Positions 5,327 to 56,503 of a stretch of DNA of 64,000 nt are shown one piece after another. The DNA comes from Opitutus sp. GAS368 (GTDB lineage Bacteria; Verrucomicrobiota; Verrucomicrobiia; Opitutales; UBA953). A program made the position numbers and the translations under genes. The stretch lies in assembly GCA_945866215.1 (NCBI GenBank), contig CAMBGQ010000004.1, forward strand, positions 1 to 64,000, given 5' to 3'. The notes beneath the pieces are model-generated. The model did not search any database and was not told where the DNA came from. It was given only the letters and a program-made list of their open reading frames with translations. Each line of letters begins with the position of its first letter. The stretch's first letter is position 1.

Positions 5327-6460
5327 TCAGAGCGCAGCGTGCAAAGCCTCGGCGCGGCGGATGGCTTCTTCGAGCGTTGTCGCGGTGACAGTGATGTGGC
5401 CCATCTTGCGGCCCGGCGCCGCTTTACCCTTATCGTAGAGGTGCAACTTGGCGGAAGGATCGGCGAGGACCTTGGTCCAGTCGGGCTCCTGGCCATTGCG
5501 CCAGACGTCGCCGAGCAGGTTCACCATCGCGGAAGGTGCGAGCGGCTTCGTGCCACCGAGCGGCAAGCCGCACACGGCGCGGATGTGCTGTTCGAACTGG
5601 CTGGTCTCGTTGGCGTCAAAAGTCTGGTGGCCGCTGTTGTGCGGACGTGGGGCGAGCTCGTTGACGACGATGCGGCCGTCCTTCACGAACATCTCGACGG
5701 CGAGGAGGCCGACGAGCTGAATCTTGTCGGCGATGCTCAGAGCTAGGGCGCGAGCTTCGGCGGCCGTAGCTTCAGAAATGCGGGCCGGCGAAATCGAAAG
5801 GTGTAGGATGTGGTTCCGGTGAATGTTTTCGGCGGGGTCATAAACCGCGGTGCGACCATCGACCGTACGGGCGACGAGCACCGAAATCTCCATCTGGAAC
5901 GGTACCCACGCTTCGAGGACGCCGACCGCGCCGCCAATCTTGTCCCAGGCCGCGGCGAGATCAGCCTCAGCGGTCGGTAGCTTCACTTGGCCCTTCCCAT
6001 CATAACCAAAATCCGCCGTCTTCAGTACGCACGGGAAACCAACGGTCTTCACGGCCGCCTGCAGCTCGGTCAGCGACGAAACGACGGCGAAGTTTGCGCA
6101 AGGGATGCCGGAGGCGCGGAGGAACTCCTTCTCGCGGCGACGATTCTGGCAGGTCGCCAAGACATTGGCCGAAGGGTGGCTCGGGACAGACTTCGCGACG
6201 AACTCAACGGTCGCGGGTGGGATGTTTTCGAATTCGAGCGTGATACGGCCGCAGCCCTGGGCGAAGCGCGTGAGTGCGGCAGTATCGTTCCAGTCGGCGG
6301 TGATATGCTCATCGGCAATCGCCGCCGCACAGGCGCCGGCGGAAGGGTCGAACGTGCGCACCTTATAACCGAGACGGCGCGCGGCGAGGGCCGACATCCG
6401 ACCCAGCTGGCCGCCGCCGAGGATACCGATGGTGCCGCCGGGTTGCAGAGGTCGCTCCAT
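5327..6460 (-). CDS. purK: 5-(carboxyamino)imidazole ribonucleotide synthase
   Basis: GTIGILGGGQLGRMSALAARRLGYKV; ATP-grasp motifs; NELAPRPHNSGHQT; followed by purE. Confidence 0.95.
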   Translation of the reverse strand: MERPLQPGGTIGILGGGQLGRMSALAARRLGYKVRTFDPSAGACAAAIADEHITADWNDTAALTRFAQGCGRITLEFENIPPATVEFVAKSVPSHPSANVLATCQNRRREKEFLRASGIPCANFAVVSSLTELQAAVKTVGFPCVLKTADFGYDGKGQVKLPTAEADLAAAWDKIGGAVGVLEAWVPFQMEISVLVARTVDGRTAVYDPAENIHRNHILHLSISPARISEATAAEARALALSIADKIQLVGLLAVEMFVKDGRIVVNELAPRPHNSGHQTFDANETSQFEQHIRAVCGLPLGGTKPLAPSAMVNLLGDVWRNGQEPDWTKVLADPSAKLHLYDKGKAAPGRKMGHITVTATTLEEAIRRAEALHAAL

Positions 6461-18555: not shown

Positions 18556-19410
18556 ATGTCTCACTCGCCTTTATCTACCCAGATGACCCCTTTGGCCGCC
18601 AAACTCGCCGAGCATCCCCTCTCCTGGGAATGCCTGCTGGGTTGTGCCGTGGTATTCTTGGTCGCTGCTGTGCTCGACGGGCTGGCCTCGAAAGACGCCA
18701 CCGGCCGTTTACCCTCGATGGGGCTTTGGTTGCTCCGGGGCGCCTGGGTATTGCTTACGACCATGCTGGCCTACCAAGGCTTGCGCTCAAACTCGCTCCC
18801 CATCGCCAGCCCGGCGGAGTTACTCCTCTCGATTGCCTGGGGTCTCTCAGGCGTGGCCCTTTTCTTAGATCTCACCTTCAACCATCGTCTGCCGACGTGG
18901 GCGATTGCCGGGAGTACGGCGCTCTGCCTTACGCTGGCGGCGTTTCTTGGTGTCGTCGAACATCCCTTGGACACAACCGGCAAGCCGCTCATCGTGATCC
19001 ACGTGGGCGCCGCGGTGCTCGCCTACTGCGTGCTGGGCGCGCAAGCGCTCAACTCGGGGGCTTACCTCTTGCAGGACCGGGCGCTGGCCCGACATCACTT
19101 CGGCGGGGTCTACGCGTTGCTCCCGGCGCTCGTCCCCCTGGATCGCATCGGTAGCCAGCTCATGGGCGCGGCTGTCTGGCTACTCGGATTATCCTTGGTG
19201 ATCGGCACCACCGATTGGGCGCAGCGCGACCCCGGGCTGGTCGCCGCCCCGAAGCTAATCGCCGCGCTTGTCACCTGGCTCGCGTGTTTCTGGATCGTCG
19301 TGCAGCGCCGGCGTCAACGTCTCCAGGGTGCCTCTTTCGCGCGCGCCTCGCTGGTTGCGGCTTTGCCCGCGCTGGTCGCCCTCTATCTTTCGCTACCCGC
19401 TGCCCGATGA
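18556..19410 (+). CDS. CcsA/HemX-like cytochrome c assembly family membrane protein
   Basis: Multi-pass membrane protein with IHVGAAVLAYCVLGAQALNSGAYLLQDRAL; overlaps hemA (ATGA). Confidence 0.7.
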   Translation: MSHSPLSTQMTPLAAKLAEHPLSWECLLGCAVVFLVAAVLDGLASKDATGRLPSMGLWLLRGAWVLLTTMLAYQGLRSNSLPIASPAELLLSIAWGLSGVALFLDLTFNHRLPTWAIAGSTALCLTLAAFLGVVEHPLDTTGKPLIVIHVGAAVLAYCVLGAQALNSGAYLLQDRALARHHFGGVYALLPALVPLDRIGSQLMGAAVWLLGLSLVIGTTDWAQRDPGLVAAPKLIAALVTWLACFWIVVQRRRQRLQGASFARASLVAALPALVALYLSLPAAR

Positions 19411-52734: not shown

Positions 52735-54884
52735 GCAACTCCGCCGCAGGCCTACTGGTCGCGCTCGTCGGTAACCCCAACACCGGCAAGTCGACCCTCT
52801 TCAACGCCCTGACCGGCCTGCGGCAGCGCGTCGGTAATTATCCCGGCGTCACCGTCGCCCGTAAGTCCGGCATCTGCGATCTCGGCGACGGGCGAAAAGT
52901 CGAGCTGCTCGACCTCCCTGGACTTTACTCCCTCGCCGCCGCTTCGCCCGACGAGCAGGTCGTCATCGACGCCCTCTCGGGCAATATCGTCGGCGCCCGT
53001 CGTCCGGACGCGGTGGTGCTCGTCGTCGACGCGACCAACCTGCTCCGTAATCTCTTCCTCGCCTCCCAGGTCGCCGAGCTCGGTCTGCCGGTGGTGATTG
53101 CGCTCAATCAGGCCGATGTCGCCAAGGAGCAAGGCCTACGCATCGATACCGGCTTACTTTCCCGTCGGCTGGGCGGTGTCCCCGTCGTGCTGACTTCCGC
53201 TTGGCAAGGCGAGGGCATCCTCGACGTGCGGCGTGGTATCGCGCGCGCGTTGACTGAGCCGGCGCCGATGAAACGCGTGTCCTGGCCGACCGATATCGCG
53301 GGGGCCTTGGCAGAAGTGGCCGCCGCCGCCGCGGCCGATACGGGCCGGCCGATCACGGAGGCGGAGGCCCAGCGACTGCTCTTCGATACGAATCCGTCGA
53401 CTGCCGAACGGCTCGGCTGGGCGCTCGCCCGCCGCGAGAAGACGCTCCGCGTCGCGCGGGATCGCGTCCGTCATTCCGGCTACAACCCCATGGCGGCCGA
53501 ACCGCTCGTCCATTACGCGCATCTCCGCCTCATCCTCGAGGGAGTCGTGGCGGAAGGCCTGGGCAAGGCGGGCCGTTCCGCCGCCGTCGATCGCCTGCTC
53601 CTCCACCGCTTTCTTGGGCCCGTGCTGTTCCTCGGGATCATGCTCGGTTTTTTTGGCTCCGTCTTCTGGCTGGCGAAGTTCCCCATGGAATGGATTCAGG
53701 CTGGGGTGGATTGGACGAAGAGCATCGTCGCGCCGCCCTTGGACGCGTATCCCATGCTCCAAAGCCTGCTGGCGGACGGCATCATCGGGGGCGTCGGGGC
53801 CTTCTTGGTCTTCCTGCCGCAAATCCTGATTCTCTTCCTTTTCATCGGAATCCTCGAAGACAGCGGCTACATGGCGCGTGCTGCGTTCATCATGGACCGT
53901 CTTTTTAGCTGGTGCGGCCTCAACGGGAAGAGTTTCGTGCCGCTGCTCTCCGGTTTTGCCTGCGCGATTCCGAGCCTGCTTTCCACGCGCACGATCGAAG
54001 ACCCCAAGGCGCGGCTCGCGACCGCCTTCGTGGTGCCGTTCATGAGTTGTTCGGCCCGCTTCCCGGTCTATGCGCTGATGTGCGCCGCCTTCATCGGTCC
54101 GGTCTATGGTCCAGGCTGGCAATCCGTCGTGATGATCGGGATGCACTGCGTCGGCCTACTCTTCGCCGTCCCGACGGCTTTCGTGCTCACGCGCCTCGTG
54201 CTCAAGGTCAAGCCGCAGCCCTTTGTCCTCGAGCTTCCGCGCTACCAGATGCCCAAGTCGCGCGACGTGCTGTGGCGCATGTGGCAGAACGCCGCCGAGT
54301 TTGTGTCCCGGGCCGGTACGGTTATCTTCGCCATCACCATTATCGTCTGGGCGCTCTCGTATTTTCCGCGCGACCCAGCGGTGGCGGAGCGCATCCAGGC
54401 CGCGCACCCGACGGCCGCCCCAGAAGTGGTCACGGCCAAGATACAGGCGGCGTATGTCGAACAATCCTACATGGGACGATTCGGCAAGGCGGTGCAGCCA
54501 GTCTTCGATCCACTGGGCTTCGACTGGAAGATCACCGTCGGCGTGCTGGCGAGCTTCCCGGCCCGCGAGGTCATCGTCTCCACGCTGGGCGTGACGTACT
54601 CCGTCGGCGAAGGCGCCGAGGCCGACAGCCAGCATCTCCGCAAGGCCATGCAGGACGCTAAATGGTCCGAGGGGCCGCGCGCCGGCACCCCTATCTTCTC
54701 CCTCGCCGCGGTGCTCGCGCTGATGGTCTTCTTCGCGCTTTGCTCGCAGTGCGGCCCGACGGTTGCCACGCTCGCCCAGGAGACCGGCGGCTGGCGGTGG
54801 GCCGCGGGTTCGTTCGTCTACATGACGGCACTCGCCTGGCTCGCCGGGACGGCCGTCTATCAAGTCGTCAGCCGTCTCTCATGA
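52731..54884 (+). CDS. feoB: Ferrous iron transport protein B
   Basis: LVALVGNPNTGKSTLFNALTGLRQRVGNYPGVTV, LLDLPGLYSL, GILEDSGYMARAAFIMDRLF, PLLSGFACAIPSLLSTRTIED, VPFMSCSARFPVY. Confidence 0.96.
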   Translation: MSNSAAGLLVALVGNPNTGKSTLFNALTGLRQRVGNYPGVTVARKSGICDLGDGRKVELLDLPGLYSLAAASPDEQVVIDALSGNIVGARRPDAVVLVVDATNLLRNLFLASQVAELGLPVVIALNQADVAKEQGLRIDTGLLSRRLGGVPVVLTSAWQGEGILDVRRGIARALTEPAPMKRVSWPTDIAGALAEVAAAAAADTGRPITEAEAQRLLFDTNPSTAERLGWALARREKTLRVARDRVRHSGYNPMAAEPLVHYAHLRLILEGVVAEGLGKAGRSAAVDRLLLHRFLGPVLFLGIMLGFFGSVFWLAKFPMEWIQAGVDWTKSIVAPPLDAYPMLQSLLADGIIGGVGAFLVFLPQILILFLFIGILEDSGYMARAAFIMDRLFSWCGLNGKSFVPLLSGFACAIPSLLSTRTIEDPKARLATAFVVPFMSCSARFPVYALMCAAFIGPVYGPGWQSVVMIGMHCVGLLFAVPTAFVLTRLVLKVKPQPFVLELPRYQMPKSRDVLWRMWQNAAEFVSRAGTVIFAITIIVWALSYFPRDPAVAERIQAAHPTAAPEVVTAKIQAAYVEQSYMGRFGKAVQPVFDPLGFDWKITVGVLASFPAREVIVSTLGVTYSVGEGAEADSQHLRKAMQDAKWSEGPRAGTPIFSLAAVLALMVFFALCSQCGPTVATLAQETGGWRWAAGSFVYMTALAWLAGTAVYQVVSRLS

Positions 54885-55030
54885 ACCTCGAAGCCGTCAT
54901 CGTCGGGGCTATCATCGGCGTCGCCGCGGGTTGGCTGATTCGTCGTTGGCTGGCCGCCGCCCGTCGTCGCAAGGAAGGCGGCTGCGCCGGGGATTGCGCT
55001 TGTGCGACGAAGCTAAAGCCGAAGAAGTAA
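54881..55030 (+). CDS. FeoB-associated Cys-rich small membrane protein
   Basis: 49 aa MNLEAVIVGAIIGVAAGWLIRRWLAAARRRKEGGCAGDCACATKLKPKK; ATGA overlap with feoB; one TM plus CxxxCxC. Confidence 0.72.
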   Translation: MNLEAVIVGAIIGVAAGWLIRRWLAAARRRKEGGCAGDCACATKLKPKK

Positions 55031-55034
55031 GCCT

Positions 55035-55424
55035 GAGAGGCAAGTTGACCAGTTGATGGGTTGGCCAGTTGGCCAGAAAAGACATGGAACTCAAAGGGAG
55101 ACCGGGAACCGGGAAGTTGGCTTCGGGCATATTCTTTCGGGTGACAGGTGACGGCCACCAGGGCATCAGCCTCTCGGGAGTCGGCCATTCAGCCATCGGC
55201 AGCCGGCTCCAGGCTCCCGCGGCCGATGGCCGAGAAGCCGATACCTGAGTTGCCGTCACCCGTGGCTGACACCCGTCACCCGGAATTTAATTCCCCAGCC
55301 AATCATCCGGTCTCGGGTTCACCATTGAGTGAGTGCCTCGGCTTTCTTGCCCACCTGTCAACTTGTCAACCTGCCAGCTAGTGCGCCCTCTGGGCCTCTG
55401 GCCCACTGGTCAACTGATCAACTA
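55035..55424. repeat. Mosaic of degenerate 7-8 bp repeats arranged as an imperfect inverted repeat
   Basis: Left block AGTTGACC|AGTTGATG|GGTTGGCC|AGTTGGCC (55043-55074); right block on the minus strand AGTTGATC|AGTTGACC|AGTGGGCC|AGAGGCCC|AGAGGGCG (55423-55384) and GGCAGGTT|GACAAGTT|GACAGGTG (55375-55352); GCCATCGGC/GCCGATGGC stem near the centre. Confidence 0.8.
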
Positions 55425-55461
55425 ACGCTGCGCCCCTTGCCCCCATGTCACCGTGCCCCCT

Positions 55462-55476
55462 CGCGGCTTCGCCGCG
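55462..55476 (-). terminator. GC-rich hairpin just past the aguA stop (possible terminator, no U-tract)
   Basis: CGCGGC-TTC-GCCGCG. Confidence 0.35.
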
Positions 55477-55477
55477 C

Positions 55478-56503
55478 TCACACCGGCTGCTGCTGGCTGA
55501 GGCAGTGCAGCGCGCCACCTTCGATGAGCAGTAGGCGGCAGTCGATGCCCACGATTTTCCGACCGGGGAAGCCGTCGCCGACGATGCCCATGGCAATCTG
55601 GTCGGAGTCTTGGCCGTAGAGCGGCACGAGGACGCCGCCGTTCACGATGAGGAAGTTCGCATGGCTCGGTGGCAGCTCGCGTCCGGCGAGGCGGATGGGT
55701 TTCGGCAGCGGAAGCTCGAGGACGTCGAGCCGTTGGCCGCGCGGGCGCATCTCGCGCAGGCGGCGGAGGTTTTCCTGCAACGGCGCGTAGTTCGGCGAGG
55801 CCTTGTCGGCCTCACTGACGGCGAGGATGGTGCGCGGCGCGATGAAGCGCGCGAGGTTGTCGATGTGGCCGTCGGTATCGTCGTTGGCGAGGCCTTCGCC
55901 AATCCAGAGGAGTTCGTCGACCGCGAGCCCGTCGCGGATGGCGGCGTGGAACGCGGCGTCATCGCGGCCTTCGGCGCGGTTCGGATTGTTCTGCACAGCC
56001 TCGGTGGTGAGGAGCAGGCCGTCGCCGGAGACTTCGATGCCGCCGCCTTCGAGTTCGAATGGATAGCTAAACTTCTTCACGCCGAGGCGTGCGGCGATCT
56101 TGCCGGGGACTTGGTTGTCGAGCGAAGCCTCGAACTTGCCGCCCCAGCCGTGGAATTCCCAGTCGGTGAGCGCGAGCTCCTTGGTCTGGTCGTTCTTCAC
56201 GAAAATCGGCCCATGGTCGCGGCACCACACGTCGTCGGTGGCGATGTCAGTCAGCTCGATGACGGAAAGGTCGGCTTTGGCTTCTTTGAGCGCTCGTTCG
56301 GCTTCGGCGCGCAACTTGCCTGCGGCGTTAATCTTCACCGGCTGGAACTCGGCGATCGCCGCGGCGAACTCCGCGAACTTTGCGGGGATGAGGCCGTAGT
56401 GCCCGGGCCAGAGCGCGGGGTTCGACGGCCAGGACAGCCACGTGGCGGACTGAGGTTCCCACTCCGCGGGCATGCGGAAACCGAGGGCGCGTGGCGTGGC
56501 CAT
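55478..56503 (-). CDS. aguA: Agmatine deiminase family protein
   Basis: MPAEWEPQSATWLSWPSNP, DVWCRDHGPIFV, LEGGGIEVSGDG, NDDTDGHIDNLARF, IVGIDCRLLLIEGGALHCLSQQQP. Confidence 0.92.
   Translation of the reverse strand: MATPRALGFRMPAEWEPQSATWLSWPSNPALWPGHYGLIPAKFAEFAAAIAEFQPVKINAAGKLRAEAERALKEAKADLSVIELTDIATDDVWCRDHGPIFVKNDQTKELALTDWEFHGWGGKFEASLDNQVPGKIAARLGVKKFSYPFELEGGGIEVSGDGLLLTTEAVQNNPNRAEGRDDAAFHAAIRDGLAVDELLWIGEGLANDDTDGHIDNLARFIAPRTILAVSEADKASPNYAPLQENLRRLREMRPRGQRLDVLELPLPKPIRLAGRELPPSHANFLIVNGGVLVPLYGQDSDQIAMGIVGDGFPGRKIVGIDCRLLLIEGGALHCLSQQQPV

Follow-up and report, generated by a model that had tools for sequence, protein, structure and literature searches.

Among the described systems of short repeats, GTAG-tagged REPs and REPINs are accompanied by RAYT transposases (PMC3116915, PMC3733652); GTAG REPs are abundant in Opitutus terrae, a member of the Verrucomicrobia, and in three bacteria, Anabaena variabilis among them, REP dimers are inserted within long palindromic sequences (PMC3733652). 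The BIMEs of E. coli, the NIMEs and Correia elements of Neisseria and the BOX, RUP and SPRITE repeats of the pneumococcus are short repeats mosaicked in spacers in variable order, with the PU/REP of enterobacteria and the dRS3 of Neisseria as the defining units of BIMEs and NIMEs proper. MITEs are non-coding, shorter than about 500 nt and carry terminal inverted repeats. The cyanobacterial STRRs are degenerate 7-nt words arranged in tandem in spacers, as runs of direct repeats. Intergenic heptamers forming runs of direct repeats have also been reported as GGGNATC (PMC4692102) and TAACTGA (PMC4679880). Insertion of pneumococcal repeats into one another has been reported (PMC3049150), and the organelle genomes of Volvox hold palindromes inserted within palindromes (PMC2670323). 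How short bacterial palindromic repeats originate, move and build composites is a long-standing question.

Here we present the analysis of one intergenic spacer (55031-55477) in a window of 64,000 nt, the whole stretch of DNA analysed, from Opitutus sp. GAS368 (G000). The spacer's neighbours are a short FeoB-associated ORF and the convergent gene aguA. The element that it contains is put together from palindromic modules, each dispersed separately, and is not one foldback grown by slippage (Table 1); its dispersed, composite nature is near certain. The modules A and B represent a real, genus-specific and apparently undescribed family of nested intergenic palindromes, akin in kind to BIMEs, NIMEs and REPINs, and a search of open-access text found no description of the A/B family. 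The principle of nesting is already known; what appears to be new is the sequence family, its genus-wide extent, the discrete occupancy of the apex by unrelated hairpins and the series of junctions.

Like REPs and REPINs, modules A and B are intergenic, high in copy number, limited to a genus and built of two inverted arms that form a long hairpin. Unlike them, they lack a GTAG (or GGAG/CGTC) head at the repeat end, they measure 78 and 150 nt rather than 20-40 nt, and they are not found on either side of RAYT genes here; in relatives, the hairpins next to small RAYTs are GTAG hairpins, a separate module family. They share the listed traits of MITEs but have no target-site duplication; BOX and RUP do leave such duplications. 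As an organisation the spacer is a mosaic of the BIME/NIME type, with different short repeats joined in variable order. The sequences of the BIME, NIME, Correia, BOX, RUP and SPRITE elements are, as far as seen, unrelated to A and B, and in the accounts consulted no description was found for them of a concentric order with apex inserts and discrete loop sizes. The Volvox palindromes, with TAAA/TTTA loops, are organelle DNA and unrelated in both sequence and host (PMC2670323). The degenerate 7-nt words of the STRR, GGGNATC and TAACTGA repeats resemble those of the present spacer, but they form direct runs, whereas here such words make up the arms of a palindrome, in runs of only 2-4 degenerate units with significant periods of 7 and 8.

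Table 1. Features of the spacer and its two neighbouring genes (positions in the window)
Feature	Position	Strand	Basis or remark
Short FeoB-associated ORF	54881..55030	+	left neighbour of the spacer
Whole composite palindrome	55039..55375	.	one mismatched stem of 125 pairs; folding
Left outer shell: 4.2 copies of a degenerate GTTGACC-type octamer, in an array	55043..55076	+	
Module A, left arm: CTCAAAGGGAGACCGGGAACCGGGAAGTTGGCTTCGGG	55090..55127	+	family alignment, junction comparison
Module B at the tip of A: TTTCGGGTGACAGGTGACGGCC ... GTCACCCGTCACCCGGAA	55135..55285	+	empty/filled comparison
Palindromic core inside module B	about 55160-55260		
Module A, right arm: CCCCAGCCAATCATCCGGTCTCGGGTTCACCATTGAG	55293..55329	-	
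Right outer shell: CACCTGTCAACTTGTCAACCTGCC, base-paired with the octamers on the left	55352..55375	-	
Second octamer array on the right, beyond the main stem, made of GCCCTCTG / ACTGATCA units	55384..55424	-	
aguA (agmatine deiminase)	55478..56503	-	right neighbour, convergent; name from the earlier note and an orthologue search, not a family scan

An earlier note on this DNA had described mirrored arrays of degenerate repeats here, and every word that it listed is present at the position given. The mirrored order is real, since one imperfect palindrome of about 337 nt accounts for it. Folding was far more stable than in shuffled sequence on either strand (z of -8.6 on the plus and -7.8 on the minus strand), none of 100 shuffles being equally stable. 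Period-8 autocorrelation across 55031-55477 was 0.39, versus 0.26 in shuffles (z 6.0; 0 of 500), and was significant in both the left (z 5.4) and the right array (z 7.0); the centre of the spacer instead has a period of 7 (z 4.3), so that the strict 8-nt phase claimed for the octamers holds in the outer arrays and fails in the centre.

Separate modules were recognised by comparing copies across spacers. The arrangement found in the window is octamers( A( B ) ), with A extending overall from 55090 to 55329 and B occupying the tip of its hairpin. Module A is a quasi-palindrome of about 78 nt, for which an alignment of 45 copies (mean column identity 82%) gave the consensus CTCAAAGGGAAACCGGAGACCGGATGATTGGCTGGGG-(5-11 nt)-ATGnCCGCAGCATnCTTTCCGGTTTCCGGTCTCCCTTTG. 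Module B, of about 150 nt, starts with TTYRGGTGACRGGTGACRGCC and closes in mirrored words. The ends of A are CTCAAAGGG and those of B are TTCGGG/TTCAGG. The genus has further modules, namely GTTGACC octamers, GGTTAGC heptamers and GTAGGG hairpins.

A and B are separate dispersed families limited to one genus of Opitutae. The host assembly (1.9 Mb in 97 contigs, 85.5% complete) yielded 77 matches to the element, which cluster on the same contigs, and full-centre copies 76-82% identical were found on several contigs. Matches were also present in 10 of 12 other genomes of the genus, and six genomes from other families gave none. Using a 21-nt pattern with 2 mismatches allowed (reversed-pattern control about 0), we found arms of A in 44 of 55 genomes of the genus (freshwater Opitutae MAGs), with up to 136 arms per genome; none occurred in the eight genomes that represent other genera of the family, and in the rest of the order the pattern stayed at the chance level of the control. 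The GGTTAGC heptamer word has 27 matches in the host genome and is nearly absent from the remaining phylum sample. Exact A-arm matches in named records were nearly all labelled as Opitutae or Verrucomicrobia MAGs, and the few under odd names (Akkermansia, Polynucleobacter) are taken to be mislabelled bins. A match in one contig of Omnitrophica (L176) and those in a pair of viral contigs (L300, L301) appear to fall within coding sequence and were set aside as chance, and a plasmid collection gave no match. The three readings offered earlier (dispersed intergenic repeat, structured RNA, slippage-grown foldback) are, as a set, partly supported; the first is borne out by these counts. The earlier note had named a lack of both other copies and a period of 8 as telling against an element; copies were found in the host genome and its relatives, and the period is significant.

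The apex of A is occupied in discrete steps. Among 92 two-armed copies, 57 are empty, with loops of 31-43 nt, and the filled loops peak at 154-162, 172-182 and 193-195 nt, with classes reaching 262 nt. In a larger set, both inner arms of A were intact in 27 of 40 filled copies, against a null rate of 0.2%, which places the insert at the hairpin tip. The occupants (B, a GGTCTC-type hairpin, a GTAG hairpin) are mutually unrelated. Furthermore, nesting runs in both directions: on contig C8 of the host genome a B-like palindrome (B4) occurs without an insert at L029:8430 and with A inside its loop at three other sites (L029:2760-2960, 5839-6018 and 18784-18950). This B-like composite with A recurs in three C8 spacers within 16 kb, beside B-like copies free of A.

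The feoB-aguA order is conserved in many members of the genus, which holds dozens of species, and this one spacer can be seen empty, singly, doubly and differently filled. G006 has no element and a spacer of about 10 nt, and G002 and G009 have a short unrelated sequence at the junction. A stands alone in G004 and G011, with B in G000 and G001, and with another hairpin in G010; in G008 and G012 one arm of A adjoins hairpins of the GTAG-REP type. Empty and filled junctions were read from BLAST gap coordinates and by direct inspection of the sequences, the gap (159-168 nt versus 1 nt) falling exactly at the apex of A. Depending on the genome, the apex of A thus carries B, carries another, unrelated hairpin or carries neither, although "empty" copies of A could also arise by loss of the centre from a longer palindrome. 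With this series, apex insertion can be put to a direct test, together with its target rule and the enzyme responsible.

We consider it probable that the spacer is a composite of non-autonomous, apparently mobile palindromic repeats, nested at their apices and mobilised in trans. Growth by apex insertion is likely: new modules would enter at hairpin tips, probably on an extruded or single-stranded palindrome, and nests would then grow from the inside. Insertion would be the work of a trans-acting factor, which our searches did not find and for which a Y1/HUH single-strand transposase is one candidate. Only tentatively do we propose, as a more specific version, that hairpin tips are a preferred entry site for other palindromes and that a single-strand-specific system acting in trans, other than GTAG-REP/RAYT, inserts A and B without target duplication and so generates concentric hairpins. 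No cellular function would be needed to explain the elements.

The search for a mobiliser and its traces weighs against the reading of trans-mobilised repeats. Target-site duplications were not seen beyond chance (best z 2.7 in 200 tests). The Y1_Tnp domain was not found in the host genome, at 85% assembly completeness, and is present in 28 of 55 genomes of the genus; A is modestly more numerous in the genomes with Y1 (p about 0.01), with genome size as a confounder because A also rises with it, and 15 genomes have at least 10 arms of A yet no Y1. Neither module was found to bracket a transposase. A RAYT as mobiliser of A or B was rejected, since A and B do not flank Y1 genes in the relatives. 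There, about 8 of 20 loci show a small Y1 gene with GTAGGG hairpins on both sides, the pattern described for REPtrons (PMC3733652); RAYT/REPtron loci around Y1 matches are L266, L270, L273, L277, L278, L280, L282 and L283. Y1 genes of 325-329 aa are bracketed by inverted repeats of their own, built on GGGGTCAGACC and about 55 nt long (L217, L220, L221 and L222, with about 1 kb between the arms in L221), and these longer genes resemble the TIRYTs (PMC3733652). The genus therefore has REPINs and TIRYT-type repeats, and A and B are a further kind. No autonomous element with matching ends was apparent between widely spaced arms of A (six pairs), the ORFs there looking like ordinary metabolic genes when judged by eye.

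Module B has been copied recently, as the sequence comparisons point to, between non-orthologous spacers and between species. Between G000 and G001, B is 98.1% identical, versus 88.6-92.5% for the arms of A, 86.7% for feoB, 82.4% for the small ORF and 77.9% for aguA. The B of the window is also 95.3% identical to a G008 copy (C98:10238) whose syntenic position in G000 (C4:68.6 kb) holds a copy only 70% alike. Non-coding B thus exceeds its coding flanks in identity, and paralogous sites exceed orthologous ones, so copies must have spread once the species had separated.

On its own, the identity pattern is compatible with transposition as well as with conversion or transfer; B could be copied with no transposition at all, through gene conversion or through a transfer with subsequent recombination. 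An account in which the repeats spread solely by gene conversion or homologous recombination among existing copies, with horizontal transfer between species, strikes us as rather unlikely, but it is the alternative that survives best. It would explain why B in G000 and G001 is so much more alike than its flanks, and it agrees with the lack of target-site duplications and of a cognate transposase, with the clustering of copies on the same contigs and with the frequent occurrence of single A arms. However, the same apex of A holds unrelated sequences across species, something that exchange among similar repeats would not provide on its own, and the element-free spacer of G006 also speaks against it.

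If apex-nested, trans-mobilised repeats are the correct reading, insertions would be retained mainly downstream of genes, at positions that tolerate them, and the orientation pattern is compatible with such tolerance. Only 2 of 183 element groups lay inside called genes. Elements were present in 51 of 90 convergent, 83 of 315 tandem and 20 of 106 divergent spacers (convergent versus divergent, Fisher p 5e-8), in a non-random sample selected by pattern match, which biases the totals but not obviously the orientation contrast, and with gene calls from a simple purpose-written codon model that leave some error in the orientation counts. Element-bearing spacers were 2-4 times longer than others, and in tandem spacers the elements lay closer to the upstream stop (median 140 versus 173 nt).

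The convergent enrichment, the proximity to upstream stops and the great stability of the hairpin would also suit an RNA or DNA structure with a function at the ends of genes, such as a bidirectional terminator, an mRNA 3' stabiliser or an attenuator, which we nonetheless regard as very improbable. A scan for intrinsic terminators gave nothing convincing, its one weak 5-bp match being at about chance level, and an Rfam search gave no family at gathering score, only chance resemblances to long hairpins below the threshold (MIR918 with 42 bits versus a gathering score of 268). RNAalifold found two-sided change in 1 of 15 pairs, the arms show no covariation, A-C mismatches in the arms are not avoided, and close relatives do without the element at the same junction. 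At positions 9 and 16 of the A stem, mismatches are conserved across species (A/G on the left, G/A on the right), as if the asymmetry were kept. Given the conserved mismatches and the missing covariation, stable folding by itself is not evidence of selection for an RNA, and the suggestion of a structured RNA is left unsupported; in such spacers, folding energy alone is a poor ground for annotating a conserved ncRNA.

Least probable of all is a foldback built in place by slippage or template switching, with octamer growth and inversion on the hairpin, a slippage-grown foldback being one of the earlier note's three suggestions: the strong 7- and 8-nt periodicity, the drifting units and the same words in both arms suit it, but the modules are conserved families of fixed sequence shared by dozens of spacers, and the arms of one copy are no more alike than those of different copies (A, 17.95 within versus 18.15 between, of 21; B, 12.91 versus 12.98, of 15), so that there is no sign of one arm still being copied from the other. 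Such growth does not account for A and B: each is a defined, conserved sequence, found apart from the other, nested in either order and present in other genomes too. The family data weaken the slippage reading, which could survive just for the outer octamer shells, and the outer octamer and heptamer arrays probably lengthen by slippage during replication.

Two further arrangements of modules were observed. In several genomes, GAGGACTGAATG-type units of about 12 nt form another outer array beyond A and other modules (L191:1045-1373, L165:2900-3000). Also, an 18-kb stretch of G007 contig C10 (L292) has modules in many successive spacers, in which an octamer shell is often followed by A, then by B or a GTAG hairpin, and then by the mirrored series.
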